This document shows positions 31,951 to 61,658 of a stretch of DNA of 64,000 bases, piece by piece. Source of the stretch: Gelria sp. Kuro-4 (GTDB taxonomy: Bacteria; Bacillota; DTU030; DUMP01); assembly GCF_019668485.1 (NCBI RefSeq), contig NZ_AP024619.1:1673001-1737000 (forward strand). The letters are read 5' to 3'. Under the pieces are notes generated by a model. It worked only from the letters and a program-made list of their open reading frames with translations, was not told the DNA's origin and did no database searches. Positions within the stretch are counted from its first letter, which is position 1. Each line of letters starts with the position of its first letter. The position numbers and the translations under genes are program-made.

Positions 31951-31977
31951 GGAAAAGTGAAAGAGGAGGAGTCTCAA

Positions 31978-32751
31978 GTGAATCTGCTGGAGAAAACGCG
32001 TAGCCTCAACCGCCTGCTACAAAAGTCCGCGGGGCACCCCGTCGACTTTGACGAAATCTGCCGCGTGTTGAGCGAACTCATCCAAGCCAATGTCTACGTG
32101 GTCAGCCGGCGGGGGAAGATTCTCGGGCACGCCCTGAAAGAAGGATACCGTTGTGATGTGATGGAGGCGGACGTCCTCAAGGCGGAAAAGCTGCCTGGCG
32201 ACTTCAACGACCGCCTGCTCCGGGTTCTCGATACCACCACCATGCAGCAGGAACCCGGGCACTGCGTCTTCGACAGCGAGGTGGGCTGCCTTTTCCCCTC
32301 GCAGGAGCTGACCATTGTGCCGATCAACGGCGCCGGCGAGCGCCTCGGCACGCTCCTGGTGGCCAAGTTCGACGCCGCCTTCACCGAGGAGGACCTGATC
32401 CTCGCCGAGTACGGCGCCACGGTGGTGGGAATGGAGATTCTGCGGGCCAAGAGCGAAGAGATCGAAGAAGAGGCCCGCAAGAAAGCGGCCGTGCAGGTTG
32501 CCCTCGGTACCCTTTCCTACTCGGAGCTCGAAGCGGTGGTTCACATCTTCGAGGAGCTCGACGGGCCGGAGGGCCTCCTGGTGGCCAGCAAGGTGGCCGA
32601 CCGGGTGGGAATTACGCGTTCGGTGATCGTGAATGCCCTGCGCAAGTTCGAAAGCGCGGGCGTGATCGAATCGCGCTCCCTCGGCATGAAAGGAACCTAC
32701 ATCAAGGTGCTGAACGACCGCCTGCTGGACGAACTCAAGAAGATAAAATAG
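31978..32751 (+). CDS. codY: GTP-sensing transcriptional pleiotropic repressor CodY
   Basis: A 257-residue CodY: N-terminal GAF domain binding branched-chain amino acids (to about residue 155), linker, and C-terminal winged helix with [32 protein letters not shown] 31978 lies seven bases after GAGGAG; the frame could extend seven codons upstream but without a better site. It senses GTP and Ile/Leu/Val to repress adaptive genes. It ends the xerC-hslVU-codY transcript. Confidence 0.96.
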
Positions 32752-32764
32752 CCCGGGTGCCCCG

Positions 32765-32794: not shown

Positions 32795-32855
32795 GTCCAA
32801 AAAGAGGGCTTTAATTTCTGGTAAAATAATACTGGTCGGCAGGAATTTGGCTAAC

Positions 32856-32914: not shown

Positions 32915-32941
32915 ACCTAAAAGAAGAATTGAACGAGCTGA

Positions 32942-33023
32942 CAGCGAAACAAGGCAAACCTGGCGAAAGCCGGGGACGCAAAGCCACGGGCCTACAGCTT
33001 AAAGCCAAGGCAGCCGGGCTGCC
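32942..33023 (+). promoter_or_regulatory. Cyclic di-GMP-I (GEMM-I) riboswitch aptamer
   Basis: The conserved aptamer parts are in order. GGCAAACC leads into P2 with a GAAA tetraloop at 32965-32968, then GGGACGCAAAGCC, the GGGCCT segment of P3, and the closing GGCAGCCGGG matching the GG(U)AGCCGGG consensus. It lies just upstream of flgB, so intracellular c-di-GMP should control the flagellar operon by transcription attenuation. Confidence 0.9.
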
Positions 33024-33038
33024 GCGCGTCTGGCTGGA

Positions 33039-33074
33039 ACCCCCAAGTGGCCCTGCCAGCTGGGGTATTTTCTT
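33039..33074 (+). terminator. Riboswitch expression platform terminator
   Basis: A bulged stem of about 11 pairs (ACCCC at 33039-33043 with GGGGT at 33062-33066; AGT and GGC with GCCA and CT inside) followed by TATTTTCTT. An alternative pairing GCTGG (33033-33037) with CCAGC (33056-33060) excludes it, the expected two-state layout. The flgB ribosome site begins shortly after. Confidence 0.65.
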
Positions 33075-33094
33075 ATGGGCGAGGAGGTGGGCGC

Positions 33095-33505
33095 ATGCCC
33101 TGGGATCCTGTAACGAGCGGCGTGCTCAGAGAGATAGGGCTCGGCCTGGATTGGGCCGCCTTGCGGCAGCGGGCCATCGCCAATAACCTGGCCAACGTGG
33201 ACACGCCTGGTTACAAGCGGGAGGACGTGGCGTTCCCGGAAGCGCTGCGCCGGGCGCAGGCGGGGGGCGGGCGACCGCTGGCTCTGGCGGTCACGGCGCC
33301 GGGGCACCTGACGCCCCCGGCCGAAGAAGGTTGGGTGGTAGTACGGGACACGGGCACTACATTGCGTAACGACGGCAACAATGTCGACATTGAAGCGGAG
33401 GCGGCGGAGCTGGCCAAGAACGCGCTCTACTACAACGCCTTGGTGAGCCGGGCGGCCGGTTACCTGGCGAGCCTGCGCTATGTCATCAGTGAAGGGAGGC
33501 GTTAG
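33095..33505 (+). CDS. flgB: Flagellar basal-body rod protein FlgB
   Basis: A 136-residue proximal rod protein. The N-terminal rod motif RAIANNLANVDTPGYKREDVAF is followed by the C-terminal helix with ELAKNALYYNALVSRAAGYLASLR. ATG 33095 follows GAGGAGGTGG, right after the riboswitch platform. First gene of the fla/che operon; exported by the flagellar type III system. FlgC starts two bases after its stop. Confidence 0.95.
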   Translation: MPWDPVTSGVLREIGLGLDWAALRQRAIANNLANVDTPGYKREDVAFPEALRRAQAGGGRPLALAVTAPGHLTPPAEEGWVVVRDTGTTLRNDGNNVDIEAEAAELAKNALYYNALVSRAAGYLASLRYVISEGRR

Positions 33506-33507
33506 CG

Positions 33508-33942
33508 GTGTTTGCAGACCTCGATATCGCCGCTTCCGGTCTCAGCGCCCAGCGGCTCCGGTTGGACATCATCGCCAACAACCTGGCCAACGCGGAAACG
33601 ACGCGCACGGCGGCCGGGGGGCCGTACCGGCGCCGGCTGCCGGTGTTCGCTCCACGGGAAGCAACGTCCTTCCAGTACTTTTTCCAGGCGGCGGCCGAAG
33701 GCGGCGTCGGCCGGGGCGTGCGCGTCACCGGCATAGTCACCGATCCCAGTCCGCTGCGGCGGGTATACCAGCCCGGCCACCCGGACGCCGATGCCGCGGG
33801 GTACGTCGCTTACCCCAACGTCAACGTGGTAACCGAGATGGTGGACATGATTTCCGCCAGCCGGGCCTACGAAGCCAACGCGGCCGCCTTCAACGCCGGT
33901 AAGGGCATGGCGCTCGAGGCCTTGGAACTGGGAAGGAGGTAA
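33508..33942 (+). CDS. flgC: Flagellar basal-body rod protein FlgC
   Basis: A 144-residue rod protein with the N-terminal motif ASGLSAQRLRLDIIANNLANAETTRT and the C-terminal NVVTEMVDMISASRAYEANAAAFNAGKGM shared by the rod/hook family. GTG 33508 has the AGGGAGG site inside the end of flgB. It assembles with FlgB to form the proximal rod. Confidence 0.95.
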   Translation: MFADLDIAASGLSAQRLRLDIIANNLANAETTRTAAGGPYRRRLPVFAPREATSFQYFFQAAAEGGVGRGVRVTGIVTDPSPLRRVYQPGHPDADAAGYVAYPNVNVVTEMVDMISASRAYEANAAAFNAGKGMALEALELGRR

Positions 33943-33947
33943 GCTGA

Positions 33948-34241
33948 ATGAATGCGGTCAGTGCCATAGGCACTGCTCGGCCGCTTTGGCCTTCGGCGGC
34001 GCCCGGCGATTCCGAAAGCGGGGCGAGTTTCAGCCAGGTGCTCGGGGAGTACCTGCAGCAGGTCAACCGCCTGCAGCTCGATGCCGAGGCCAAAACGCGC
34101 CAGCTGGTGGCCGGGGAGGATATCGAGCTCCACCAGGTGATGCTGGCGGCGCAAAAGGCCGAAATAGCCTTAGAGCTTACCCAGACATTGCGCAACAAGG
34201 TCATTGAAGCCTATCAAGAGATTATGCGGATGCAGGTTTAA
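33948..34241 (+). CDS. fliE: Flagellar hook-basal body complex protein FliE
   Basis: A 97-residue FliE linking MS ring and rod. The C-terminal half is typical: AGEDIELHQVMLAAQKAEIALELTQTLRNKVIEAYQEIMRMQV. The N terminus is short and variable as usual. AAGGAGGTAAG overlaps the flgC stop, ATG 33948 follows. Confidence 0.94.
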   Translation: MNAVSAIGTARPLWPSAAPGDSESGASFSQVLGEYLQQVNRLQLDAEAKTRQLVAGEDIELHQVMLAAQKAEIALELTQTLRNKVIEAYQEIMRMQV

Positions 34242-34259
34242 GGGCGTGAGGTGGCAGGC

Positions 34260-35774
34260 ATGAACATAAGCATCGGCCAGCTGGGTGCCAAGGCCCGCGC
34301 CTTCTGGCAGGGCGCAAGCCGGGGCCTAAAGCTCAGGCTGCTCATCGGGGTTGTTCTCGGCCTCAGCCTGGTGGGTGCGGTGGTTTTCTTCTCCCGCCCG
34401 AGCTACGACCCCCTTTTCACCAACCTGGCGCCGGCCGACGCGGGAGAAATCGGCCAGCGCCTGCAAGAGCTGAAGGTGCCCTACCGCCTGGGCGGCGACG
34501 GCAAGAGCATTCTGGTGCCGCGGGACAAGGTGTACGACCTGCGCAACCGCCTGGCCATGGAAGGCCTGCCGAAGGGTAATGCGGTAGGCTTTGAGATCTT
34601 CGACCAGACCAAGCTCGGCGTCACCGACTTTGAGCGGCGGGTGCAGTATCTGCGTGCCTTGCAGGGGGAGCTGGCGCGCACCATCGGTCAAATGGACGGG
34701 GTGCGCTCGGCCTCGGTTCAGATTGTGCTCCCTGAGGACAGGCTGTATCAGAAAGACACCCGGCCCCCCACGGCCTCGGTTTTGCTTGACACCGTGGGTC
34801 AAATGGGGGCGGACAAGGTGCGCGCCATCATGCATTTGGTATCGCACAGCGTCGAAGGTTTGACGCCGGAGAACATCACGGTGGTTGACACCAGTGGACA
34901 GGTCCTCTCGGACCTGGTGCAAACGGACGACACGCCGGTAGGGCTTTCCAGCAGCCAGCTGGCCCTGCAGCGCTCGGTGGAGCGGGAGATCGAGCGCAGT
35001 ACCCAGAGCATGCTGGAGACGGTGCTGGGCCCAGGCATGGTGGTGACCCGGGTCAAGGCCGAACTGAACTTCGACCAGCGCGAGGTTACAAATGAGTTCT
35101 TCCAGCCCGTGGCCAACGACGAAGGTATCCTGCGCAGCATGCAGGAGCTGCAGAAAACCTTCGATGGTCAGAGCGGGCCGCAGGGTACGCCGGGGACGCC
35201 CGCCAACATCCCCCCCACCTACCAGACGGGGGCGGGCGGCCCGAGCCACTACGAAGAGCGCCAGGTCACGCGCAACTACGAGGTAAACCAAACGAAGGAG
35301 CACCTGGTGGTGGCCCCGGGCAGCGTTCGGCACCTGAGCGTGGCGGTAATGGTCAACGGCAACCTCACTCCGGCCCAGCAGCAGGCCATTCAGTCTGCCG
35401 TGACCAATGCGGTAGGCCTGCAGCCCAACCGGGGTGATCAAATCAGCGTGGTGTCCTTCCCGTTCCAGGGACAGCCCCTCGCCCAGCAGGCGGCGGCCCA
35501 AGCGGCGGCCGATCAGGCGGCACGCCGGCAGCGTCTCCTGGTGCTGGTGGCTCTAGGAGCATCTCTCCTGGTGCTGGCGGTGTTCCTTGTCCGGCGGCTG
35601 CGGCGGCGCGCACCCGCCGAGGTGGTGCCGCTCCCGGTGGCGGGGGCCGAAGAAGAAGCAGCACCCGCGCGCGAAGAGACAGAACGCGACCGCATCCGGA
35701 AAGAAGTCGAACGCCTTGCCCGGCAGCGACCGCAGGAGGTGGCCCAGCTGCTGGCTACCTGGCTCAGTGAGTAG
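34260..35774 (+). CDS. fliF: Flagellar MS-ring protein FliF
   Basis: A 504-residue MS-ring protein. It has an N-terminal membrane segment (residues 24-43), the periplasmic YscJ-like domain with SRPSYDPLFTNLAPADAGEI, ring-building motifs RVQYLRALQGELARTI and PPTASVLL, a low-complexity Gly/Pro stretch near 310, and a second membrane helix near 430. A C-terminal cytoplasmic FliG-binding tail follows. ATG 34260 lies five bases after GAGGTGG; GTG 34251 overlaps that site. Confidence 0.95.
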   Translation: MNISIGQLGAKARAFWQGASRGLKLRLLIGVVLGLSLVGAVVFFSRPSYDPLFTNLAPADAGEIGQRLQELKVPYRLGGDGKSILVPRDKVYDLRNRLAMEGLPKGNAVGFEIFDQTKLGVTDFERRVQYLRALQGELARTIGQMDGVRSASVQIVLPEDRLYQKDTRPPTASVLLDTVGQMGADKVRAIMHLVSHSVEGLTPENITVVDTSGQVLSDLVQTDDTPVGLSSSQLALQRSVEREIERSTQSMLETVLGPGMVVTRVKAELNFDQREVTNEFFQPVANDEGILRSMQELQKTFDGQSGPQGTPGTPANIPPTYQTGAGGPSHYEERQVTRNYEVNQTKEHLVVAPGSVRHLSVAVMVNGNLTPAQQQAIQSAVTNAVGLQPNRGDQISVVSFPFQGQPLAQQAAAQAAADQAARRQRLLVLVALGASLLVLAVFLVRRLRRRAPAEVVPLPVAGAEEEAAPAREETERDRIRKEVERLARQRPQEVAQLLATWLSE

Positions 35775-35788
35775 AGGGGGAATGCAAG

Positions 35789-36796
35789 GTGCGGCAGGCA
35801 CTGGCAGGTAAGGAGAAGGCGGCCATTCTTTTGATCTCCCTGGGGCCGGAGCTTTCTGCCCAGGTGCTCAAGCATATGCGGGAAGACCAGATCGAGGAGC
35901 TTACCCTGGAGATCGCCGGCCTGAAGCGGGTGGAGCCCGAGCTGCGCGACAAGGTGCTGGAGGAGTTTCACCAACTGTGCCTGGCCCGCGAGTGCATCTC
36001 CCAGGGCGGTATCACATACGCGCGCGAGGTGCTGGAGCAGGCCCTGGGTACACAGCGTGCCCTGGACATCATCAACCGGCTGACGGCTTCGCTGCAGGTG
36101 CGCCCCTTCGACTTCGCCCGCAAAACAGACGCGGGGCAACTTCTTAACTTCATTCAAAACGAGCACCCGCAGACGATCGCCCTGGTGGCGGCCTACCTGC
36201 AGCCGGAGCAGGCGGCGGCGATCCTTTCGGCCCTGCCGCCGGAAAAACAGATCGACGTGGCTAAGCGGATGGCGCTCATGGACAGCACCTCCCCGGACAT
36301 CGTCCTCCAGGTGGAGCAGGTGCTGGAACGCAAGCTTTCCACGCTGACCAGCCAGGAATACGCCCGCGCCGGCGGCGTGGAATCCATCGTCAAGGTTCTC
36401 AATGCGGCCGACCGGGGCACCGAAAAGACCATCTTGGAGGCCCTGGAGCGGGAAGAGCCGGAGCTGGCGGAGGAGATCAAGCGGCGCCTCTTTACCTTCG
36501 AGGACATCATCCAGCTCGACGACCGGGCGGTTATGCGCGTGCTGCGTGAGGTGAACCTGAATCACGACCTGCCGCTCGCGCTTAAGGTGGCCAGCGATGA
36601 GGTGCGCCATAAGATCTTTAAGAACATGTCCAAGCGGGCGGTGGAGACCCTGCAGGAAGAAATCGGTTACCTGGGACCGGTGCGCCTGCGCGATGTGGAA
36701 GATGCGCAGCAGAAGATCGTCAACATCGTGCGCAAACTGGAGGAAAGCGGTGAGATCGTCATCGTTCGCGGTGGGGAGGATGAGCTCGTTGTCTAG
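35789..36796 (+). CDS. fliG: Flagellar motor switch protein FliG
   Basis: A 335-residue rotor protein with N, middle and C-terminal armadillo-type domains. Signatures are KAAILLISLGPELSAQVLKHM, the EHPQTIALVAAYLQPEQAA middle motif and the torque helix region FEDIIQLDDRAVMRVLREV. Start GTG 35789. It binds FliF, FliM/FliY and MotA. Its end overlaps the fliH start. Confidence 0.96.
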   Translation: MRQALAGKEKAAILLISLGPELSAQVLKHMREDQIEELTLEIAGLKRVEPELRDKVLEEFHQLCLARECISQGGITYAREVLEQALGTQRALDIINRLTASLQVRPFDFARKTDAGQLLNFIQNEHPQTIALVAAYLQPEQAAAILSALPPEKQIDVAKRMALMDSTSPDIVLQVEQVLERKLSTLTSQEYARAGGVESIVKVLNAADRGTEKTILEALEREEPELAEEIKRRLFTFEDIIQLDDRAVMRVLREVNLNHDLPLALKVASDEVRHKIFKNMSKRAVETLQEEIGYLGPVRLRDVEDAQQKIVNIVRKLEESGEIVIVRGGEDELVV

Positions 36797-37538
36797 TATT
36801 TGGAAACGGCCATCCCTGAGCCAGCCGGTTACCCTGGCTGCCTGCCTGGCGGCCGAAGAGCCGGAGGAAAAAACATCCCAAGCGCGCTGCAGCGAGTGCC
36901 GGGCGCTATTGGGCGCGACTCTAGAGGCCGACCTCTTGGCGGCGGCGCGCCGGCGCGCAGCGGCCATCGAGCAGGAAGCGCAGCGGCGGGTGGAGGCCAT
37001 GCTGGCGGCCGCCCAGAAGGCGGTGGAGGAGAAAAAGGCGGCGGCGGCAGCGGCTGGGCGGGAAGAAGGTTACCGCGCCGGCTACGCCGCCGGGAAGGCG
37101 GCCGCCGAGGAGCTGATTCAGGCGGCCGAAGACCTTAAGGCCCAGGCGGAAAAAGAGCGCGCCGAACTTGTGGCCGCCCTGGAGCCCCAGGCGGTGGAGC
37201 TGGCCTTTGCACTGGCGCGGCACATCCTGCGGCGCGAGGTGCGCACGGCGCCGGAGGATGTTAAAGAGCTCCTGGCTGCGGCCGCCGCCAAGCTCCCGGC
37301 GGGAGAAAAGGTAACCCTTGAGGTGGCACCGGGTGAGGTCCCGGCCTGGACGGCGGCGCGCAACGTGGTCCAGCAGGCCCTGGGGGATCGCTCTTACACC
37401 GTGGTGGAAAGCGCCAACGTGGCGCCGGGGGAGTTTCTCCTCGCCACGGCGCTCGGCACCGTGGACGCCCGCCTGGAAAACCAGCTCCGCGCCTGCCGGG
37501 AACACCTGCGAGGAGTGCCTGGCCATGCCGCCGAGTAG
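36780..37538 (+). CDS. fliH: Flagellar assembly protein FliH
   Basis: A roughly 252-residue export-ATPase regulator with a variable start, a long Ala/Glu/Lys coiled coil (about residues 60-125) and the C-terminal FliH/V-ATPase-E-like domain with ALARHILRREV. ATG 36780 directly abuts GGGGAGG; TTG 36789, nine bases from that site, may be the true start. It overlaps fliG by 17 bases and fliI by 14, matching the usual fliG-fliH-fliI order. Confidence 0.88.
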   Translation: MSSLSSIWKRPSLSQPVTLAACLAAEEPEEKTSQARCSECRALLGATLEADLLAAARRRAAAIEQEAQRRVEAMLAAAQKAVEEKKAAAAAAGREEGYRAGYAAGKAAAEELIQAAEDLKAQAEKERAELVAALEPQAVELAFALARHILRREVRTAPEDVKELLAAAAAKLPAGEKVTLEVAPGEVPAWTAARNVVQQALGDRSYTVVESANVAPGEFLLATALGTVDARLENQLRACREHLRGVPGHAAE

Positions 37539-38862
37539 CGTCAGCCTGGAACGGTATCGGCGGCAGTTGGAAGGCTTCGATTCCCTGCCGGTGTGGGGAA
37601 GGGTGACGCGGCTGGTGGGGCTGACGGTGGAGTCGCAGGGCCCGCCGGCCGAGGTGGGGGAAGTGTGCCTCATTCACGGCTGCGGGGAGCGGCCGATTAA
37701 GGCCGAAGTGGTGGGCTTTCGCGAACAGCAGCTCATCCTCATGCCCATCGGTGACCTGGCCGGCGTAGGCCCCGGCAGCCCGGTGCGCGCCACGGGCCGG
37801 CCGCTGACCGTGGCGGTCGGACCCGAGCTTAAGGGCAGGGTGCTGGACGGGCTGGGGCAGCCCCTGGACGGCGGCGGCCCCATAGCCAGCCGCCTGCTTT
37901 ACCCGCTCGAGGCCCGCGCCCCCCACCCGCTCAAGCGGCAGCGCATCCACGAACCGCTGGCACTGGGCATCAAGGTGGTAGACGGGCTCTTGACCTGCGG
38001 GAAAGGCCAGCGCCTGGGCATCTTTGCCGGCAGCGGCGTGGGCAAGAGCACCCTCCTGGGGATGATGGCGCGCAACACCGCCGCCGATATCAACGTGGTG
38101 GCCCTCATCGGGGAGCGCGGGCGCGAGGTGCGCGAGTTCATCGAAGAATCGCTGGGCGAGGCGGGTCTGGCCCGATCGGTGGTGGTGGTGGCCACCGCCG
38201 ACCAACCGCCGCTCATCCGCGTCAAGGGCGCCCTGGTGGCCATGAGCATTGCCGAGTACTTCCGCGATCAGGGGCAGGACGTCCTCTTTATGATGGATTC
38301 GCTCACCCGCTTTGCCATGGCCCAGCGCGAGATAGGGCTGGCCAGCGGCGAGCCTCCCACCACCAAAGGGTACACGCCTTCGGTGTTCGCCCTGTTACCA
38401 CAGCTGCTGGAACGGGCCGGGGCCGCCGAGCGCGGTACGATCACCGGCTTGTTCACGGTGCTGGTGGACGGCGACGATATGCTGGACCCCATAGCCGATG
38501 CGGCGCGCAGCATCCTGGACGGTCACATCGTGCTCAGCCGGGCCCTGGCCAGCCGCAACCACTACCCGGCGGTGGATGTGCTGCAAAGTGTCAGCCGGGT
38601 TATGGGCGAGGTGGTACCGCCGGCGCACCTGAAGTTGGCCCAGGCGGCCCGACAGGTGGTGGCGGTGTACCGGGAGGCGGAAGACCTCATCAATGTGGGG
38701 GCGTATGTTGCCGGCAGCAACCCGGCCATCGACCGGGCCCGCCAACTGATTGAGCCGGTGGAGGCCTTTCTCCGGCAGGACGTCGCGGAGAGCTATCCGC
38801 TGGAGAAGACCCGCCGGCTTCTGGCCCAGGCTTTGGGTGAAGCAGGGGAGGAATCGGCGTGA
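37525..38862 (+). CDS. fliI: Flagellum-specific ATP synthase FliI
   Basis: A 445-residue F1-beta-like ATPase of the flagellar type III export apparatus. Walker A GSGVGKST is at residues 169-176, Walker B around DVLFMMDSLTRFAMAQREIGL, and GYTPSVFALLPQLLERAG follows. ATG 37525 lies inside the 3' end of fliH. Energises unfolding and export with FliH and FliJ. Confidence 0.96.
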   Translation: MPPSSVSLERYRRQLEGFDSLPVWGRVTRLVGLTVESQGPPAEVGEVCLIHGCGERPIKAEVVGFREQQLILMPIGDLAGVGPGSPVRATGRPLTVAVGPELKGRVLDGLGQPLDGGGPIASRLLYPLEARAPHPLKRQRIHEPLALGIKVVDGLLTCGKGQRLGIFAGSGVGKSTLLGMMARNTAADINVVALIGERGREVREFIEESLGEAGLARSVVVVATADQPPLIRVKGALVAMSIAEYFRDQGQDVLFMMDSLTRFAMAQREIGLASGEPPTTKGYTPSVFALLPQLLERAGAAERGTITGLFTVLVDGDDMLDPIADAARSILDGHIVLSRALASRNHYPAVDVLQSVSRVMGEVVPPAHLKLAQAARQVVAVYREAEDLINVGAYVAGSNPAIDRARQLIEPVEAFLRQDVAESYPLEKTRRLLAQALGEAGEESA

Positions 38863-39317
38863 GCTTTCATTTCCGACTGGCGCGGGTGCTGGCGGTGAAA
38901 AAAATTCGGGAGAACCAGGCCATGCTTAAGCTGGCGGAGCGCACCGCCGAGCGCCGAAAGGAGGAGTACCGGCTGGAGCTGGAAACGCGGCGGCTGGCTG
39001 CCGCCTGGCACGGTTTGACGGTGGCAGGCTGCCGCTCGGGCGGGGAGCTGGCCGGCCGGGCCCTCTGGACCCAGGCGGCGCGCCGGAGCTGCCGGGAGCA
39101 GCAGCACCGCACGCATGAGGTTAGAAACGCTTGGGCGGGAGCGCGCGGGGAATTTCTGGCGCGCCGGGCCGAGCGACAGGCCTTAACCGCCCTGCGCAAT
39201 AAAGCCGAGGCCGCCTACCAGGACACAGCCCGGCGGGAGGAGAGCAAGGAACTCGACCAGGTAGCCGGGGTCGCCTACCTGAGACGGCAAAGGGAGGGAT
39301 TAAGGTGGCGCGGGTAG
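38859..39317 (+). CDS. fliJ: Flagellar export protein FliJ
   Basis: A 152-residue, highly charged two-helix coiled-coil protein (FHFRLARVLAVKKIRENQAM at the start, Arg/Glu-rich throughout), the size and style of FliJ. GTG 38859 overlaps the fliI stop by four bases. It is thought to act like the gamma subunit stalk in the FliI hexamer and to carry chaperones. Sequence is weakly conserved; position is decisive. Confidence 0.88.
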   Translation: MSFHFRLARVLAVKKIRENQAMLKLAERTAERRKEEYRLELETRRLAAAWHGLTVAGCRSGGELAGRALWTQAARRSCREQQHRTHEVRNAWAGARGEFLARRAERQALTALRNKAEAAYQDTARREESKELDQVAGVAYLRRQREGLRWRG

Positions 39318-39859
39318 CAACCCTGCCGCGGAACCAGGCCCAGACCCGGCCCCGGGCCTGGGTAACGGCTCTGGTGGTGCTCCTCATCCTGGCCCTCATC
39401 GCCGGCCTCGCGGTACTGCTCCTCAGCTTCATGGGCGTAAAGCCGCCCGCCGCCCTTGCAGGACTCGTGCCGGGAGGAACCAAAAGCGGCGGTACTGCGG
39501 AACAGGCGACTAGTGAGCTGGCCACACTCCGGGCCGCCCAGGCCGCTTTAGAAGCCCAGCGGACACAGCTTGAGACGCAGCTTCAGGAAAAAGAGGCCCA
39601 GGTGCAGATGCTCACCGCCCAGGTAAACAAGTTGCAGGCGGACCTGGCGGCGGCAGAAAAGAAGAACACCGACCAGAAGGCAGTGGCGGGGATCTATGCC
39701 AGCATGCAGCCCAAAGACGCAGCGCAGATCCTCACGGAGCTGCCGGATGCGCAGGTGGTGCCCATCCTGGCCCAGCTGAAAAATGACCAGGCAGCGGCTA
39801 TCCTGGCGGCCATGGATAGTAAGCGCGCTGCCCGCTTAACCCAGGCGCTGGGCGGCTAG
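39305..39859 (+). CDS. MotE/YlxF-like flagellar protein with MgtE_N-like domain
   Basis: A 184-residue protein: cytoplasmic N-terminal tail, one membrane helix (residues 19-42), a coiled coil of Gln/Glu/Ala (about 75-125) and a C-terminal MgtE-N/FliG-like helical domain (ASMQPKDAAQILTELPDAQVVPILAQLKNDQAAAIL). It holds the place of ylxF in the Bacillus fla/che operon. MotE-type proteins help flagellar assembly or motor function. GTG 39305 follows GGGAGGG and overlaps fliJ. Confidence 0.8.
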   Translation: MARVATLPRNQAQTRPRAWVTALVVLLILALIAGLAVLLLSFMGVKPPAALAGLVPGGTKSGGTAEQATSELATLRAAQAALEAQRTQLETQLQEKEAQVQMLTAQVNKLQADLAAAEKKNTDQKAVAGIYASMQPKDAAQILTELPDAQVVPILAQLKNDQAAAILAAMDSKRAARLTQALGG

Positions 39860-39902
39860 GGCCCGATCGGGGAAGGTGGACCCTGAAAGGAGGTGATGAC
39901 AA

Positions 39903-41189
39903 ATGGCCATGGCACTCAGCACAACGCCTGCATCTTCCGGCGCCCAGGCGCTTCTTCCCGGTACCACCCGGCGGGCGGGCGCGGCGGCGGAGCCGGCCGA
40001 CGCGGGCGGTGACGCCTTCAGTGCGCTCTTGGCCGCACTGCTCGGTTGGGGAGCCGTCCCGGTGCCGCTGCCGGCGGCGGTTGACCTGGAGGCGGCGGCC
40101 GGGGAAGGCGGCGCCTGCGGGGGAACGCCGGGCCGGGTGGCCGCAGGCGCACAGGCCCCTACCGGTTTAGCGGGCGGGACGGGCCTTAACCCCCATGGGT
40201 GGCAGGCGGTACCTGCGGGTGGGGCACTCCCTGGTACGGCGGCGGCTACGACTGCTGCTGCGCCGCCCGCCGCGGCTGACGCAGCGCCGCCGGCCGCGCC
40301 AGTTGCGTCGGCTTTGGAAAAGGCCGCCGCTGCGGTGCAGGCAGGCACAGGAGAGACGACGCCGCATCTTGCCCCAGGTAGCGGTCCGGCGACCGGTGCC
40401 CCGGAGACGGCTCGAGCGGCTCCGGCCGCATCTTCTCCCGGGCGCGACACAGGCACGGTTAAGCCCGGCGCCGCCGCTGCCGCTCAGGTCGAGCCGGCTC
40501 CGCCCGCTGCATCCCAGCCGCCCGGGCCGGCGGCAAAGAGCCGGGGAGAAGGGGCGGCCGCCCGTAAGGCCCAGGACCAGAGCCCGCCGGTCGGGACAGG
40601 GGCTCAGGGACAGGGGCGCGTGCAGCCGCCGGGCCCGGAGGTGCAAACAGCACCCCGGCTGCAGCTGGTACGTGAACCGGCTGCCCGCAGCCGACCGGAA
40701 AGCCATGGGGCCGCGCCGCCACCCGGCACCCAGCCGCAGCCCGGGCCGGTGGCGGTCGAGGACGTACCGCTCGTCTTCCGGCGCCTGCTGGACGAGGCCC
40801 GCTGGACACAGGCACCGGGCCGGCAGGAGGTAACTCTGCAGCTCGAGCCGGAAAAACTGGGCCGGGTGCACCTGACGGTGCTGCAGCAGGGAGGAGCAGT
40901 GAGCGCCCGCCTTGAGGTAGAGAACCAGGCGGCCCGCGAGGTGCTGCAGGCGGGACTTCTGGAGCTTAAGCAGGACCTTGCGGCGCAGGGCGTACGGGTA
41001 AATGAACTTAACGTGCTGGTGGGGCAGAACCTAAGCGGTGGCAGCGGCGGCTCTGCCGGGCACAGCGGTGCTTTTTCCGCCGGCCGGCACGGTGGCGGCC
41101 CGGCGCCTTTCCTGGGGCAAAACCCAGCGACGGCTGCAGGCGCTGCCGCCGGCCCAACCGGGGGGACCGGCCTCGACCTGCGCGTGTAA
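39903..41189 (+). CDS. fliK: Flagellar hook-length control protein FliK
   Basis: A 428-residue protein with a long, low-complexity Ala/Pro/Gly-rich N-terminal two-thirds (ruler-like, disordered) and a compact C-terminal Flg_hook domain: QEVTLQLEPEKLGRVHLTVLQQ, then EVENQAAREVLQAGL and VNELNVLVGQ. AAGGAGGTGATGAC is a near-perfect ribosome site before ATG 39903. It sets hook length and switches export specificity through FlhB. Confidence 0.9.
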   Translation: MAMALSTTPASSGAQALLPGTTRRAGAAAEPADAGGDAFSALLAALLGWGAVPVPLPAAVDLEAAAGEGGACGGTPGRVAAGAQAPTGLAGGTGLNPHGWQAVPAGGALPGTAAATTAAAPPAAADAAPPAAPVASALEKAAAAVQAGTGETTPHLAPGSGPATGAPETARAAPAASSPGRDTGTVKPGAAAAAQVEPAPPAASQPPGPAAKSRGEGAAARKAQDQSPPVGTGAQGQGRVQPPGPEVQTAPRLQLVREPAARSRPESHGAAPPPGTQPQPGPVAVEDVPLVFRRLLDEARWTQAPGRQEVTLQLEPEKLGRVHLTVLQQGGAVSARLEVENQAAREVLQAGLLELKQDLAAQGVRVNELNVLVGQNLSGGSGGSAGHSGAFSAGRHGGGPAPFLGQNPATAAGAAAGPTGGTGLDLRV

Positions 41190-41202
41190 AGGAGGTGGAA
41201 AT

Positions 41203-41661
41203 ATGAACGTAACGGCGACAACAGCCGCGGCCGAAGCCGCGAGCTCACAGCCTCAGTCGACGCCCGACCTGGGACGCGAGGATTTCCTGCAGCTTTTGGT
41301 TACCCAGCTGCGCCTGCAGGACCCGCTGGAGCCGGTGAAGGAAAAGGACTTCATCGCGCAGCTGGCCCAGTTTGGTACCTTGGAGGGGGTCAATAACCTC
41401 TCAGATGAAATAAAGAAGCTCAGCGATCTCTTTCAGACGCAGCTGCTGCAGAACGCCGGCCGGGAAGCCGTCGAGCTCATCGGCCGCCGGGTCACGGTGA
41501 CCACCGAGAATGGAAGCGTGACCGACGTGGTGACCGGCGTGCGCTGGGTAGACGGCTGGCCGCAAGTGGTGGTGGGCGGAGAGGGTTACGGCCTGGCACA
41601 GGTCGAGGAAGTGTTCCTGGCGACCGCGGCCGGAGGGGAGGAAGCGAGTTATGCCGGATAA
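41203..41661 (+). CDS. flgD: Flagellar basal-body rod modification protein FlgD
   Basis: A 152-residue hook cap scaffold. The N-terminal FlgD motif GREDFLQLLVTQLRLQDPLEP is clear, followed by KDFIAQLAQFGTLEGVNNL and a short C-terminal beta domain. AAAGGAGGTGG precedes ATG 41203. Short relative to enterobacterial FlgD (about 230) but normal for Firmicutes. Stop overlaps the next gene. Confidence 0.93.
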   Translation: MNVTATTAAAEAASSQPQSTPDLGREDFLQLLVTQLRLQDPLEPVKEKDFIAQLAQFGTLEGVNNLSDEIKKLSDLFQTQLLQNAGREAVELIGRRVTVTTENGSVTDVVTGVRWVDGWPQVVVGGEGYGLAQVEEVFLATAAGGEEASYAG

Positions 41662-42031
41662 GGTGTTTCTCCCGCCACCCATCCTGAGCCCGGTAGGGCG
41701 GGGGCCTGGGGTACGCCCGCCGCAGAAGGCGGATGAGCCGGAAAAAGGCTTCGCTTCCCACCTGGCAGAAGCGGCTGCAGGACTGCACATCTCACACCAT
41801 GCCCAGGAGCGCCTGGCCCAGCGGCGCATCCCGCTGAGCGGCGAGACCTGGGGGCGGGTGCTGGCGGCTGTCGCCAGGGTGGCGGAGAAGGGCGGCCGGG
41901 ACTCGCTGGTGCTGGTGGACAACCTGGCCCTGGTGGTGAACGTACCGAACCGGACGGTGGTCACCGCCGTGGACGGGGAGAGCATGAAGGAACGGGTTTT
42001 TACCCAGATCGATAGTGCGGTAATCGCATAG
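41651..42031 (+). CDS. TIGR02530-type flagellar operon protein
   Basis: A 126-residue protein with a Pro-rich first 35 residues and a conserved core HISHHAQERLAQRRIPL, DSLVLVDNLALVVNVPNRTVVTAVD and KERVFTQIDSAVI, as in the small protein found between flgD and flgE in many Firmicutes. Function not established. It overlaps flgD by 11 bases, so it is translated with the hook genes. Confidence 0.85.
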   Translation: MPDKVFLPPPILSPVGRGPGVRPPQKADEPEKGFASHLAEAAAGLHISHHAQERLAQRRIPLSGETWGRVLAAVARVAEKGGRDSLVLVDNLALVVNVPNRTVVTAVDGESMKERVFTQIDSAVIA

Positions 42032-42103
42032 GGCCGGACCTTTCCGGAGGCCCTGCGCTGCCGACCGACGGAAGCAGCGCCCAGGCGAAAGGAGGAAAGC
42101 GTC

Positions 42104-43438
42104 ATGATGCGTTCCATGTACGCGGCCGTCTCCGGCCTGCGTAACCACCAGACGCGCATGGATGTCATCGGCAACAACATCGCCAACGTGAACACCATCG
42201 GCTTCAAGAAGAGCCGCGTCACCTTCCGGGATGCCTTCAGCCAGATCCTGCGCGGCGCCAGCCGCCCCGAGGGCGGGCAGGGCGGCACCAACCCCATGCA
42301 GGTGGGCCTGGGGATGGTGCTCGGCTCCATCGATACCATCCACACCAAGGGCAACACCCAGACCACCGGCAACATGACGGATCTCGCCATCGACGGCGCC
42401 GGGTACTTCATCTTGAACAGCGGGAGCGGCTCCCCCGTTTACACCCGCGCCGGGGCCTTCCGCTTCGACGGCGAGGGCAACTTCGTGAACCCGGACGGGC
42501 TCAAGGTGCAGGGCTGGTACCTGGACGAGCAGGGGAACCGGCTGGCCGGCCCCGGCGGTACCGTTGACCCCACCGCCGATCCCACCGATCTGGCCCTGAT
42601 CCCGGCCCTCACCAAGAGCCCGCCCAAGCCAACCAGCAGCGTGAAGCTGAGCGGGAACCTGGATGCAGGGACGGCGGCGGGCGAGAGTTTCACGCGCAGC
42701 TTTACCGTATACGACAAGCTGGGGAATCCGTACTCGGTCAGCGTGAGGTTCACTCCCACCACAAACGCCAACGAGTGGACGTGGGAGATTCCAAACCCAG
42801 CTTCAACCACCACTCCTTTTGTAAGCGGCACGTTAACCTTCGGTGCCGATGGTACGTTTTCAAGCGTCTCAGTGGATGCAAGCAATGGGGATAAGTGGAG
42901 CGGAACTGTCAATCAGAGCGGAAGCTCTGTCACGCTAACCTTCAGCCCTGACGGGACAATAGACAATCCTCCTTACAGCCAGGATGACTGCCCCCAGACC
43001 TTCGACTTTTCCGGCATCACCCAGTACGCCGACCCGCGGGGGGAGTCGCTCATCAACGTGACGCAGGACGGGTACACCAAGGGTGACCTGGAGGAGATTA
43101 CAGTGGACGCCGGCGGTGTGGTCTCGGGGAGTTACTCGAACGGGGTGAGCCGGCCGCTCCTTAAGGTAGCGCTGGCCACCTTCACCAACCCCGGCGGCCT
43201 CATCAGTAAAGGTGGCTCGCTCTTCGCCGTTTCCAACAACTCCGGTGCCCCGGAGGTGAGCGAGCCGGGCAGCGGCCAGGCCGGGGCGATCGCGCCCAGC
43301 TCGCTCGAGATGTCCAACGTGGACCTCTCCGAGGAGTTCACCGACATGATCGTGACCCAGCGCGGTTTCCAGGCCAACTCCCGGGTGATCACCGTTTCCG
43401 ACGAAATGCTGCAGGAACTCGTGAACCTGAAGCGGTAA
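42104..43438 (+). CDS. flgE: Flagellar hook protein FlgE
   Basis: A 444-residue hook protein. N-terminal YAAVSGLRNHQTRMDVIGNN with ANVNTIGFKKSRV, the surface domains in the middle, and the C-terminal VDLSEEFTDMIVTQRGFQANSRVITVSDEMLQELVNLKR are all typical. ATG 42104 follows AAAGGAGGAAAG. Codon use in the middle third (42,720-42,980) is more AT-rich than the flanks, common for hook surface domains. A stable hairpin follows the gene. Confidence 0.96.
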   Translation: MMRSMYAAVSGLRNHQTRMDVIGNNIANVNTIGFKKSRVTFRDAFSQILRGASRPEGGQGGTNPMQVGLGMVLGSIDTIHTKGNTQTTGNMTDLAIDGAGYFILNSGSGSPVYTRAGAFRFDGEGNFVNPDGLKVQGWYLDEQGNRLAGPGGTVDPTADPTDLALIPALTKSPPKPTSSVKLSGNLDAGTAAGESFTRSFTVYDKLGNPYSVSVRFTPTTNANEWTWEIPNPASTTTPFVSGTLTFGADGTFSSVSVDASNGDKWSGTVNQSGSSVTLTFSPDGTIDNPPYSQDDCPQTFDFSGITQYADPRGESLINVTQDGYTKGDLEEITVDAGGVVSGSYSNGVSRPLLKVALATFTNPGGLISKGGSLFAVSNNSGAPEVSEPGSGQAGAIAPSSLEMSNVDLSEEFTDMIVTQRGFQANSRVITVSDEMLQELVNLKR

Positions 43439-43457
43439 GCCCGGCCAGGCCAATGGT

Positions 43458-43482
43458 GGGGGGCCCGCCACCCGGGCCCTCC
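43458..43482 (+). promoter_or_regulatory. Intercistronic GC hairpin between flgE and motA
   Basis: A perfect seven-pair stem (GGGCCCG at 43461-43467, CGGGCCC at 43473-43479) that extends to ten pairs using one G-T, with a five-base loop and no T-tract. Probably stabilises flgE mRNA or lowers readthrough into motA; the hook is needed in many copies, the stator in few. Confidence 0.55.
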
Positions 43483-43504
43483 TCCTCCGAATGGAGGTAG
43501 CGAG

Positions 43505-44293
43505 ATGGACATTGGGACAGTGATCGGCATCATCTCCGGGGTAGCCCTCATTCTCATCGCCGTAAGCAGCACCGGGAGCCTGCTGACGTACTGGGACGTT
43601 CCCTCCCTGATGATCACCATGGGCGGCACCATCGCAGGTACGCTTATCGCTTACCCCCTCAGCCAGATTGTCGGCGTGCTCAAGGTAGTGCGGAATGTCT
43701 TGCAGCGGCGGTTGCCATCCCCGGAGACCATGATCCAGCGGCTGGTCTATTTCACCGAAAAAGCCCGGCGCGAAGGCATCCTGGCCCTGGAAGACGAGGT
43801 AGAAACCCTGGACGACGAATTTTTCAAGAAAGGTCTACAGCTGGTGGTGGACGGGAGCGACCCGGAACTGGTGCGCAACATCCTGGAGACAGAGCTCGCC
43901 TTTGTGGAGGAGCGCCACAAATCCGGTCAGGGGATTTTCATCACCATGGCCACCCTGGCCCCGGCCTTCGGTATGATCGGGACCCTGATCGGCCTGATCA
44001 ACATGCTCAAGCACCTGGATGACCCGGCCGTTATCGGCCCCAACATGGCCGTGGCTCTGATCACCACCTTTTACGGTGCCCTCTTCGCCAACCTCATCTG
44101 CATTCCAATTGCAAGCAAACTCAACATTCGCTCGGGGCAGGAGGTCCTGCTCAAGGAGCTGGTCATTGAGGGCGTGCTGTCGCTCCAGGCGGGAGAAAAC
44201 CCACGGCTGGTGGAGGAGAAGCTCAAGGCCTTCCTGCCGCCCAAAGCCCGTAACGCCCTGAACGCCCGCCAGGGTGCCCAGGTAGGTGGTTAG
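43505..44293 (+). CDS. motA: Flagellar motor stator protein MotA
   Basis: A 262-residue stator subunit with four membrane segments (near residues 4-22, 31-50, 145-170, 180-200), the cytoplasmic loop between the second and third with charged rotor-contact residues, and PAFGMIGTLIGLINML plus the Pro-bearing IGPNMAVALITTFYGALFANLICIPIASKL. GGAGGT precedes ATG 43505. Located between flgE and fliL rather than elsewhere as in Bacillus. Partner MotB is three bases downstream. Confidence 0.95.
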   Translation: MDIGTVIGIISGVALILIAVSSTGSLLTYWDVPSLMITMGGTIAGTLIAYPLSQIVGVLKVVRNVLQRRLPSPETMIQRLVYFTEKARREGILALEDEVETLDDEFFKKGLQLVVDGSDPELVRNILETELAFVEERHKSGQGIFITMATLAPAFGMIGTLIGLINMLKHLDDPAVIGPNMAVALITTFYGALFANLICIPIASKLNIRSGQEVLLKELVIEGVLSLQAGENPRLVEEKLKAFLPPKARNALNARQGAQVGG

Positions 44294-44296
44294 CGC

Positions 44297-45070
44297 ATGA
44301 CCAAGCGGAAGCGGCGCGACAGCGGCCTGGAACTACCTGCCTCCCCGGGCTGGATGACCACTTACGGTGACATGACCACGCTCATCCTGACTTTCTTTGT
44401 GCTGCTCTTTTCCTTTTCCCGTATCGACGTCACCCGTTTCCAGGACGTCATCATTTCCGTCCAGGGAGCCCTGGGCATATTGGAGGGCGGAAGCACCCTC
44501 AGCCCGGAGGCGCTCCCCGGCGGCGCGGGCGACGAGGCCACCTTGGAGTGGCAGGCGGAGCAGCGGCGCTTGGAGGAGCTCCTGGGCAAGGTCAAGGACT
44601 ACGTGGAGAAGAACGGCCTGGAGAAAAAGGTTCACGTCTCGCTGGATGAACGGGGCCTGGTGATACGCTTTCTCGACACGGCACTCTTCGACCTGGGACA
44701 GGCGGATCTTAAACCCGAGGCGCGCCCTATTTTAAACCATGTGGCGCAGCTTTTAACCAGCGTCCCCAACCTGATCCGCGTGGAGGGGCACACCGATAAC
44801 CTGCCCATCCACACCTACCGGTTTCCTTCCAACTGGGAACTTTCCACCGCCCGGGCCACCACCGTGGTGCGCTACTTTGTTGAGAACTACGGCATCGCTC
44901 CCGAACACCTGTCGGCGGCCGGTTACGGCGAATGGCGGCCGGTGGCGCCCAACGACACATCCGAACACCGCGCCCAGAACCGCCGGGTGGACATTGTGGT
45001 GCTGCGTACCAGCGTGGCCAAGGAGGAGCCGCAGGGCCCGGCAGGGGCGAAAGGGGGTGGAGAGGAGTGA
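44297..45070 (+). CDS. motB: Flagellar motor stator protein MotB
   Basis: A 257-residue stator subunit. A basic start (TKRKRRDSG), a single membrane helix with the ion-binding Asp25 (TTYGDMTTLILTFFVLLFSF), a plug/linker, then an OmpA-type peptidoglycan-binding domain (VEGHTDNLPI, NWELSTARA, RAQNRRVDIVVL). Translationally close to motA; its stop overlaps the fliL start. Whether protons or sodium drive it cannot be decided from sequence alone. Confidence 0.95.
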   Translation: MTKRKRRDSGLELPASPGWMTTYGDMTTLILTFFVLLFSFSRIDVTRFQDVIISVQGALGILEGGSTLSPEALPGGAGDEATLEWQAEQRRLEELLGKVKDYVEKNGLEKKVHVSLDERGLVIRFLDTALFDLGQADLKPEARPILNHVAQLLTSVPNLIRVEGHTDNLPIHTYRFPSNWELSTARATTVVRYFVENYGIAPEHLSAAGYGEWRPVAPNDTSEHRAQNRRVDIVVLRTSVAKEEPQGPAGAKGGGEE

Positions 45071-45528
45071 GTGAAAGCAAGCCAGCCTGGACTCCCGGCC
45101 GGCTGATCCTTATTGTTGTTCTGCTCCTGGTGCTTTTCGCTCTAGCTACGCTCGGCATGGTACATTACCTCCTGGCGGCCAAGGCCGGCCCCGCGGTGAG
45201 CGCAGAGAAGGCCCAGCCCGGCCTGGGGCCGGCTTACTCCCTGGACACTTTCAACGTCAACCTGGCCGACCCGGACAGCCGTCACTTCCTCAAGGCGACG
45301 GTCAGCCTGGAGCTGGGGACGCAAAGTCTCAGCCGGGAACTTGAAAAGCGGCAGGCCCAGGTGCGCGACATTATCATCACGCTTCTGCGGGAGAAAAAAG
45401 CCGGGGAGCTGAAGAACGGGAATGCGGCCGTGGAGGAGCTGAAAAGGGAAATACGCGACCGGCTCAATGCGGTCCTGACAACAGGCAAGGTAACGGCTGT
45501 TTACTTCACCGAGTTCATCGTTCAGTAG
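45067..45528 (+). CDS. fliL: Flagellar basal body-associated protein FliL
   Basis: A 153-residue single-pass membrane protein: helix at residues 12-34, then a periplasmic FliL domain (YSLDTFNVNLADPDSRHFLKATVSLEL, RDIIITLLREKKAGEL, VYFTEFIVQ). GTG 45067 overlaps the motB stop. FliL surrounds stators and tunes torque. Confidence 0.92.
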   Translation: MSESKPAWTPGRLILIVVLLLVLFALATLGMVHYLLAAKAGPAVSAEKAQPGLGPAYSLDTFNVNLADPDSRHFLKATVSLELGTQSLSRELEKRQAQVRDIIITLLREKKAGELKNGNAAVEELKREIRDRLNAVLTTGKVTAVYFTEFIVQ

Positions 45529-45543
45529 GAAGAAGGTGACGCT

Positions 45544-46536
45544 GTGGCGGAGGTACTCTCTCAGGCCGAGATTGACGTCCTTTTGGCCGCACTCTCCAAC
45601 GGCAGCGTAAGCGTTGAACATATCAAACAGGAAGAAGAGGAGAAGCGGGTCCGCGTTTACGACTTTAAGCGGCCCAACCGCTTTTCCAAAGAGCAGATTC
45701 GCACCCTTTCTATGCTGCACGACAACTTCGCGCGGCTTCTCAGCACTTTTCTTTCCGCCCAGCTGCGGGCACCCGCCCGGATAAGCCTGCTTTCCGTACA
45801 GGAGATGACCTACGATGAGTTTATCCGCTCTGTTCCCAATCCCACGCTGATGGCCATCACCACCCTCAAGCAGCTAGGCGGCCAGATGGTGGTGGAAATG
45901 AACCCGACGCTGGCCTTCGCGTTGATTGAACGCCTGTTCGGCGGGAAGGCGACCCCGGGCGCCGGCCTGCGGCCGCTGACCGACATCGAACTGGCCGTGC
46001 TGGAGCGCATCTTGGTGCGGCTCCTTGCGGTACTCGACGAGGCCTGGTCGCATGTTTCGGCGCTGAAGCCCGAGCTGGATCGCCTGGAGACCAATCCCCA
46101 GTTTGTGCAGATTATTTCGCCCAGCGAAATGGTGGCGCTGGTCTCCATTAAGGTGGAGGTGGATGCTGCCGAGGGCCTGCTCAACCTCTGCTTCCCTTAC
46201 CTGGTTTTCAAACCGGTGGCGGCGAAACTGAGCGCGCATCACTGGTTCTCGACCATGGAGCAGGGTGTCAGCGGGGGTGGAAAGGAGGTCCTCAGCCGGA
46301 GTCTCGCCCGCACCGATGTACCTGTGGTGGCGCTTCTGGGGCGGGCCGGCATCACCGTCCGGGAGCTTCTAAACCTGCAGGTAGGCGACGTCATCGAACT
46401 GGAGAACCGGGCCGGGGATGAGATCCAGGTCCTGGTGGGCAGCCGTCCCAAGTTTTTGGCTCGGCCCGGGCAGGTCGGCAGGCACTTGGGCGTGCAGATC
46501 ACCGCCCGGTATAAAGGAGATGAAAACGGTGGATGA
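45544..46536 (+). CDS. fliM: Flagellar motor switch protein FliM
   Basis: A 330-residue switch protein. It begins with the CheY-binding peptide LSQAEIDVLLAAL, then the CheC-like middle domain (GGQMVVEMNPTLAFALIERLFGG) and the C-terminal SpoA/FliN-like domain (VALLGRAGITVRELLNLQVGDVIEL). GTG 45544 after GAAGGTG. Binds CheY-P and FliG. Its end overlaps the fliY start. Confidence 0.95.
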   Translation: MAEVLSQAEIDVLLAALSNGSVSVEHIKQEEEEKRVRVYDFKRPNRFSKEQIRTLSMLHDNFARLLSTFLSAQLRAPARISLLSVQEMTYDEFIRSVPNPTLMAITTLKQLGGQMVVEMNPTLAFALIERLFGGKATPGAGLRPLTDIELAVLERILVRLLAVLDEAWSHVSALKPELDRLETNPQFVQIISPSEMVALVSIKVEVDAAEGLLNLCFPYLVFKPVAAKLSAHHWFSTMEQGVSGGGKEVLSRSLARTDVPVVALLGRAGITVRELLNLQVGDVIELENRAGDEIQVLVGSRPKFLARPGQVGRHLGVQITARYKGDENGG

Positions 46537-47647: not shown

Positions 47648-47662
47648 ACAGGAGGGGTCGAA

Positions 47663-48025
47663 GTGGCAGCGCGAGTACTGATCGTCGACGACGCCGCCTT
47701 TATGCGGATGATGCTCCGGGATATTCTGACCAAGAACGGGTATGAGATAGCGGGGGAAGCCCCTAATGGTGCTGTGGGGGTGGAGAAGTACAAGGAAACA
47801 CAACCCGACCTGGTAACCATGGACATCACCATGCCGGAGATGGACGGCATCACCGCCGTCAAGGAAATCAAGAAGCTGGACCCGCAGGCGCGGGTCATCA
47901 TGTGCAGCGCCATGGGCCAGCAGGCCATGGTCATCGAGGCCATCCAGGCCGGGGCCAGGGATTTCATCGTCAAACCCTTCCAGCCCGAACGGGTGCTAGA
48001 AGCGGTGCGGAAAAACCTGAGCTAG
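47663..48025 (+). CDS. cheY: Chemotaxis response regulator CheY
   Basis: A 120-residue single-domain receiver: Asp9-Asp10 acidic pocket, phospho-acceptor Asp54 in VTMDITMPEMDG, Ser82 and Lys104 switch residues. GTG 47663 follows GGAGGGG. Located directly after fliY as in Bacillus. Phosphorylated by CheA; binds FliM/FliY. Confidence 0.95.
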   Translation: MAARVLIVDDAAFMRMMLRDILTKNGYEIAGEAPNGAVGVEKYKETQPDLVTMDITMPEMDGITAVKEIKKLDPQARVIMCSAMGQQAMVIEAIQAGARDFIVKPFQPERVLEAVRKNLS

Positions 48026-48036
48026 GGGGTCGGGCC

Positions 48037-48615: not shown

Positions 48616-48636
48616 GCTTAAGAGGGGGAAAAGATC

Positions 48637-49308: not shown

Positions 49309-49363
49309 CCCGCTGGACCGGCGGCGGATGTCAAGGCAAAGTGTAAGGCAAAGAAGGGATAGA

Positions 49364-49633: not shown

Positions 49634-49637
49634 GCGC

Positions 49638-51519: not shown

Positions 51520-51536
51520 AGCAGGAGGTAAGGAGC

Positions 51537-56778: not shown

Positions 56779-56838
56779 TCCACATCGCAGGCCGCCTTCC
56801 TATAAAGGCACAAGATGTCTGACAAAGAGGTGAAAGAG

Positions 56839-58860: not shown

Positions 58861-58880
58861 CGGCGAAGGGAGGAGAAAGC

Positions 58881-59974: not shown

Positions 59975-59976
59975 GG

Positions 59977-60459: not shown

Positions 60460-60494
60460 GCGCGGGGCGCGTCACCGGAAAGGGAGTGACGCTG

Positions 60495-61301: not shown

Positions 61302-61319
61302 GGAGGTGTGCGGGCTGCC

Positions 61320-61622: not shown

Positions 61623-61658
61623 GACGGGGACGGTGCAGCGAGGGAAGGAGGCGGCGCT

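Follow-up and report, generated by a model that had tools for sequence, protein, structure and literature searches.

Genes and leader at the flgB locus

The window, by which we mean the whole stretch of 64,000 nucleotides of Gelria sp. Kuro-4 DNA that was analysed, contains a long run of motility genes starting with flgB. Between codY and flgB lies a leader with a class I c-di-GMP aptamer and, downstream of it, a terminator-like hairpin. The features of this region are:

31957..32751, + strand, codY, likely its own transcription unit (Pfam CodY, HTH_CodY)
32819..32827, + strand, promoter-like TGGTAAAAT of the extended -10 type (sequence)
32940..32942, + strand, 5' strand GAC of the P1 extension, pairing with GUC at 33028-33030 (folding)
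32943..33027, + strand, class I c-di-GMP aptamer (RF01051, RF03167, pocket alignment)
32983..32990, + strand, 5' strand of aptamer P3, GCCACGGG, candidate antiterminator (AT') (folding)
33030..33034, + strand, 5' arm CUGGC of a candidate antiterminator, pairing with GCCAG at 33055-33059 (folding)
33041..33074, + strand, intrinsic terminator-like hairpin (33041-33065) plus UAUUUUCUU (folding)
33083..33087, + strand, Shine-Dalgarno GGAGG of flgB (sequence)
33095..33505, + strand, flgB, first gene of the run (TIGR01396 over cut-off)
within 33508..55547, + strand, flgC, fliE, fliF, fliG, fliH, fliI, fliJ, a collar-like ORF, fliK, flgD, TIGR02530, flgE (family models)
within 33508..55547, + strand, motA, motB, fliL, fliM, fliY, cheY, fliO, fliP, fliQ, fliR (family models)
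within 33508..55547, + strand, flhB, flhA, flhF, flhG-like ATPase (family models)
55559..56200, + strand, PilZ/YcgR-type protein (PF07238, PilZ, and PF12945, PilZNR, over cut-off)
56197..60459, + strand, cheB, cheA, cheW, cheC, cheD (Pfam / NCBIfam)
60327..61301, + strand, sigma factor, SigD/FliA-like by position (Sigma70 r2, r3, r4)
61308..62117, + strand, two further ORFs, one unassigned and one DUF6115 (family search, ORF list)

All genes from flgB up to the one that ends at 62117 are co-directional, with a largest gap of 72 bases on the mechanical starts of the ORF list. This bears out the extent of the motility gene run, about 29 kb after flgB, given in a preliminary description of this DNA. 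Several assignments (fliH, fliJ, the collar-like ORF, motA, motB, fliL, cheY and the flhG-like ATPase) fall below the curated NCBIfam cut-offs; cheB, cheA and cheD are over the Pfam cut-offs, while cheW and cheC are below those of NCBIfam. From the gene spacing, we infer that about 28-29 kb of flagellar, chemotaxis and sigma-factor genes are co-transcribed behind the switch. Elsewhere in the window, a group II intron at 16417-18247 (RF02001, 121.6 bits; RF01998, 54.2 bits) is followed by a reverse transcriptase/maturase ORF.

On its 3' side codY is followed by a terminator-like hairpin (32764-32785) and a T run, as found by the terminator scan. The promoter-like TGGTAAAAT recurs in every one of the six family genomes with a readable codY-flgB gap, whether or not an aptamer is there. 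The consensus scan missed it, as that scan depends on a -35 element, and no convincing -35 is seen in front of it. Judging from this putative promoter, the leader RNA likely starts near 32834, a few bases past TGGTAAAAT. A conserved GGCAGGAATTT after the promoter was considered as a genome-wide motif and rejected, since its four copies are matched by five in the reversed control and its recurrence is therefore attributed to chance. The aptamer was said to sit directly before flgB, and it does lie between codY and the flgB ATG at 33095: its end is 55 bases from the Shine-Dalgarno and 67 bases from the ATG. The terminator-like hairpin also occupies the 5' leader, ending 29 bases before the same ATG.

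A genome search for PilZ at E <= 0.001 returned a single match, the gene at 55559-56200. Its presence inside the flagellar operon had been noted before and holds up: besides the Pfam PilZ and PilZNR domains, the protein carries the RxxxR and DxSxxG ([DN]xSxxG) motifs, a pair that constitutes a c-di-GMP signature. As inferred from its family, the protein probably acts on existing motors. Because its gene stands inside the flagellar run, cells would make this brake only while they make flagella. Thus, c-di-GMP would hit old motors via pre-made PilZ protein and new motors via the RNA.

Aptamer class and c-di-GMP genes of the genome

Two covariance models match the + strand at 32943-33027 in full length: RF01051 with 80.1 bits (gathering score 35) and, in the cmscan search of the whole window, RF03167 (c-di-GMP-I-GGC) with 69 bits (gathering score 59; E 3.2e-14). 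Rfam clan competition ranks RF03167 first on E-value, while the bit score is higher for RF01051. The same covariance searches gave no match for either model in 14 control genomes. We take the letters GGC in the name of RF03167 to be the contact letters. In the Vc2 riboswitch, G20, A47 and C92 are reported as the ligand contacts (PMC4744006, PMC11218506, PMC9049102). An alignment of 21 aptamers, 12 before flgB and nine others, places G, A and C at these positions of the window aptamer, where C92 may be read as either of two adjacent C. The A at position 47 and the C at position 92 are found in all 21 aptamers and the G at position 20 in 20, the exception being Symbiobacterium, with A. At the equivalent of Vc2 A47 the consensus of RF03167 shows a strongly conserved G (the upper-case G of GACGCGAA), and this is where the window aptamer, with its A, departs from that family; with respect to RF01051, no departure relevant to membership was seen. 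As the pocket letters are canonical, with A at the A47 position, the GGC label is unfit for annotation. The aptamer described earlier as GEMM-I is thus, by model score and pocket letters, a canonical class I c-di-GMP (GEMM-I) riboswitch, with c-di-GMP as its predicted ligand.

Both same-genus relatives have AGGGC immediately 5' of the conserved AAACC; the window reads AAGGC there. The P1 extension (GAC/GUC) is kept in all three same-genus genomes, and was equalled by 31 of 300 shuffles. Weak R1 matches in the window at 50558-50618 (17.1 bits, E 0.008) and 22438-22511 (15.8 bits, E 0.02), three weaker ones and another at locus L099 (13.8 bits) were set aside, because none attained an Rfam gathering score when the window and L099 were scanned with Rfam.

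Four places in the genome (2.88 Mb, one contig) pass the cut-offs of both RF01051 and RF03167, in searches that scored 150 of 493 and 150 of 222 first-look candidates. Besides the one before flgB, the aptamers precede an HD-GYP-type (HD_5) gene, a gene for a methyl-accepting chemotaxis protein and a TPR/Cu_amine_oxidN1 gene; together these make up a coherent predicted c-di-GMP regulon. A FliD-like gene lies directly upstream of the aptamer of the TPR/Cu_amine_oxidN1 gene (L009:3701-6637). The genome has four GGDEF matches. One of these domains (L166, G000:C1:2382900-2383700) reads GHLAGN where two other readable ones have GD, at what is presumably the base-recognition site; another match (L165) shows no exact GG[DE]EF motif.

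Folding of the leader and direction of control

The hairpin at 33041-33065 contains UGGC/GCCA and is directly followed by UAUUUUCUU, an interrupted U tract. Its hairpin-plus-U-tract score of -14.5 kcal/mol was equalled in 7 of 200 dinucleotide shuffles of 33028-33094 (shuffle mean -2.2); the overall folding energy of the leader is not unusual (z -0.00 and -0.31) and is uninformative. The hairpin is kept in the three same-genus genomes (G000, the window's own, G001 and G002), with one compensatory change, from C-G to U-A, in G002. In the predicted folds the terminator can coexist with a closed extended P1, as in an OFF-type switch, at a cost of 0 (G000), 0.9 (G001) and 1.5 kcal/mol (G002).

Two pairings could act as antiterminator. 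The CUGGC/GCCAG form lies above the terminator form by 8.5, 7.0 and 5.3 kcal/mol in G000, G001 and G002, and shows no covariation, since it is invariant in the three genomes. Alternatively, the P3 strand GCCACGGG may pair with the 5' half of the terminator, CCC...GUGGC (33041-33043 and 33047-33051). In the window this form is more stable than the terminator form by 0.8 kcal/mol; in G001 and G002 it is less stable, by 3.0 and 2.9. When the limits of the folded stretch were changed a little, the most stable fold without the terminator came out 3.5 below the terminator form in the window and 4.6 and 6.1 above it in G001 and G002, and in G002 that fold no longer uses the P3 strand. The predicted probability of the terminator without ligand is 0.50 in the window for a stretch ending at the U tract and 0.90 for 32931-33130; it is 0.999 in G001 and 0.892 in G002.

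We also folded ten flgB leaders: those of the window, its two same-genus relatives, three of the second family of the class, Carboxydocella, Bu52, Symbiobacterium and L053, a set that leaves out the tandem aptamers of L106 and the leader of G011. In 7 of the 10 terminator-less folds the terminator 5' arm pairs at least partly with aptamer nucleotides; this is so in G009, G010 and G012, of the same class as the window. When random hairpins were placed on the same aptamer, the energy balance was reached by at most 5 of 100 in three of the ten leaders (window 4, Bu52 2, G012 0). The corresponding counts per 100 are 9 for G010, 11 for Symbiobacterium, 20 for G009, 35 for Carboxydocella, 45 for L053, 47 for G002 and 55 for G001.

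The preliminary description spoke of a clear, mutually exclusive terminator/antiterminator pair. The terminator half of this statement has some support, while "clear" overstates the antiterminator: one pairing is 5-9 kcal/mol less stable than the terminator, and the other beats the random controls in the window but not in G001 or G002. With two possible pairings and mixed controls, an antiterminator is plausible but not clear in these models. Both candidates break aptamer or P1 pairs, so that the ligand should favour the terminator. A stability below that of the terminator does not disqualify an antiterminator, because that of Cd1 is reported to be transiently stable and to refold to the terminator with time (PMC9262584).

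We think it highly probable that this is a c-di-GMP-binding leader that works as a transcriptional OFF switch, by premature termination before the flgB run. The leader RNA, started near 32834, would carry the aptamer. At high c-di-GMP, the ligand would bind the three-way junction and hold P1 and P3 closed. Aptamer-side nucleotides would then be kept off the downstream hairpin, the terminator at 33041-33065 would form and RNA polymerase would halt about 20 bases upstream of flgB, a termination that would also end synthesis of the PilZ protein together with that of the motors. At low c-di-GMP, aptamer or P1-side nucleotides would pair with one terminator half long enough to let the polymerase through, and transcription would extend from flgB as far as the genes for the sigma factor and DUF6115 (33095-62117). 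The observations behind this proposal are the aptamer with its pocket letters, the hairpin and U tract, the order of the genes and the fact that the arrangement recurs; the predicted ligand, the putative promoter, the candidate antiterminator and the presumed co-transcription of all genes complete it. OFF is the most likely direction, judging from the anatomy of the leader and from the C. difficile flgB riboswitch. Because the folding controls are mixed and the terminator probability depends on the stretch folded, it is mainly geometry and this precedent that point to OFF.

The same riboswitch could act as an ON switch if ligand binding blocked the terminator. Class I riboswitches are not always OFF: expression of the C. 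difficile gene behind Cdi-1-1 rises with c-di-GMP, and published SHAPE probing shows the terminators of Bc1 unfolding when c-di-GMP is present. The terminator is, moreover, the more stable ligand-free fold in two of three relatives. However, an ON switch would require P1 to capture one strand of the terminator, whereas here P1 and terminator do not overlap and coexist at 0 to 1.5 kcal/mol; as the precedent at the same gene in C. difficile is also OFF, we consider an ON switch unlikely. Control of flgB translation via the ribosome binding site, instead of transcription, seems to us very improbable, although the Shine-Dalgarno is only 55 bases past the aptamer end and its predicted accessibility differs between antiterminator states (0.10 versus 0.39). 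That accessibility is equal with the terminator forced or unforced (0.32, 0.31) and the antiterminator states straddle it, so no consistent translational switch emerges, and a hairpin with a U tract stands between aptamer and Shine-Dalgarno.

Two further readings concern the aptamer itself. If it were a true c-di-GMP-I-GGC variant with altered ligand specificity, the first rank of RF03167 on E-value in the clan competition would be accounted for; but the A at the A47 position, in the window and in 21 of 21 aptamers, and the higher bit score of RF01051 argue against it, and we give this reading very little credence. The three sister-genus genomes that have the same promoter-like sequence without an aptamer behind it might suggest a decayed or non-functional aptamer in a constitutive leader. 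Yet the aptamer is kept in 3 of 3 same-genus genomes, the hairpin is maintained by a compensatory change and the pocket letters are intact, all of which makes decay exceedingly improbable. Control by c-di-GMP through termination, as first suggested for this DNA, is the reading best supported by the pocket letters, the hairpin and the C. difficile precedent.

Distribution, origin and known systems

In the family of the window's genome, RF03167 matches at E <= 0.001 in 7 of 8 genomes and over the cut-off in 6 of 8. The flgB-linked aptamer is found in three, all of the window's genus (G000, G001, G002). In the sister genera, G004, G005 and G007 have codY-flgB and no aptamer in the gap; the contig of G003 starts too near flgB to judge, and no flgC orthologue was found in G006. 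The sister-genus gaps L030, L031 and L033 keep a promoter-like CTGGTAAAATAA(T/G)ACTGG stretch and have no aptamer before flgB. At the level of the class, RF01051 matches occur in 12 of 13 genomes and flgB-linked aptamers in 7 of 13 (G000, G001, G002, G009, G010, G011 and G012); a flgC orthologue was looked for in G008 and not found.

Among the best 80 flgC loci of named genomes, R1 and Rfam scans placed an aptamer before flgB in six:

L047 (matches the G002 contig in length and position)
L053
L055, Carboxydocella thermautotrophica 41
L075, Bacillota Bu52
L102, Symbiobacterium sp.
L106, with two tandem aptamers

The switch could have been missed in at least 5 of these best 80 loci, because they hold less than 1 kb upstream of flgC. 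codY is upstream in 36 of the 80, and 4 of those 36 have the aptamer. The tandem class I aptamers of L106 (1670-1890; Bacillota isolate JPNG_metabat.97) lie before flgB and downstream of a cluster of five tRNA matches, with no codY match in the stretch examined.

For the 45 rows in which all three genes were present, 10 of them with an aptamer (L053 and L106 were left out, codY not being readable), a quick midpoint-rooted CodY+FlgB+FlgC tree requires at least four changes of the aptamer label, three of them forced by well-supported branches. Shuffled labels change 9.3 times on average, and none of 500 shuffles is as low as 4. This tree places two long aptamer-bearing branches, Bu52 and Symbiobacterium, side by side, a grouping to be read with caution. 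The flgB aptamers differ much between the two families of the class. In a comparison that leaves out the aptamer of G011, three second-family aptamers share 53-56% identity with the window aptamer, the Bu52 aptamer shares 74% and the paralogues of the window aptamer share 62-68%. In the three second-family aptamers (L136, L151, L152), P2 bears a GUGA loop, and P3 is shortened and lacks the usual CUAAA-like stretch. Either the junction has recruited aptamers repeatedly, or a single ancient origin was followed by rapid change; the pattern is compatible with both.

In Symbiobacterium, the aptamer before flgB (L102:1942-2032) has A at the G20 position. We take an A at this position to be the mark of cGAMP-binding GEMM-Ib riboswitches, and by this letter the aptamer may sense cGAMP instead. 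A cGAMP-selective GEMM-Ib subclass does exist, according to PMC6456294. It is tempting to propose that dissimilar c-di-GMP-I riboswitches have landed repeatedly at the codY-flgB junction in Bacillota: aptamers with different terminators may have been inserted independently between an old promoter and flgB, and lost elsewhere. In the window's genus, the P3 strand of the aptamer itself may serve as the antiterminator. Taken as a whole, with this P3-strand antiterminator and the cGAMP specificity in Symbiobacterium, the proposal is tentative and we regard it as rather doubtful. If true, c-di-GMP has taken control of the choice between motile and sessile life more than once, each time at this gene.

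The arrangement of the window is already known from C. difficile, and is therefore less novel than the title of the preliminary description suggests. There, a class I riboswitch before the flgB operon terminates transcription on c-di-GMP binding (PMC6200980, PMC3649979, PMC11477304, PMC9262584). That operon spans 23 kb and 29 flagellar genes, sigD included (PMC6200980), its promoter lies 496 bp upstream of flgB (PMC3649979), and an invertible flagellar switch is located upstream of it (PMC7446863). Outside C. difficile, a flgB-linked c-di-GMP riboswitch did not turn up in a mostly open-access literature, which is weak evidence of absence; the one paper found that names both Carboxydocella and riboswitches mentions a manganese riboswitch there. 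The novelty is mainly comparative, and consists in the same-site distribution across the class and in other Bacillota.

With the C. difficile riboswitch Cd1 / Cdi-1-3, the window shares a class I aptamer in the leader of a large operon with flgB first, a flagellar sigma factor in that operon and a terminator downstream of the aptamer. Cd1 is OFF in C. difficile, and OFF is what we expect here. Unlike C. difficile, the window has codY directly upstream and a hairpin 29 bases before the ATG, and its run includes che genes and the only PilZ gene of the genome. If the proposed termination and co-transcription are right, a single small molecule controls synthesis of the flagellum and of its sigma factor, expression of the chemotaxis genes, and production of the sole PilZ protein of the genome. 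Carboxydocella thermautotrophica 41, Symbiobacterium sp. and Bu52 have the same codY-aptamer-flgB order, the same aptamer class and a terminator-like hairpin, while their platform sequences differ from that of the window and Symbiobacterium has its A at position 20. The C. difficile arrangement is thus not peculiar to one pathogen. Same-site switches with varied aptamers and platforms, together with sister genera that lack them, form a natural series for the gain and loss of such wiring.
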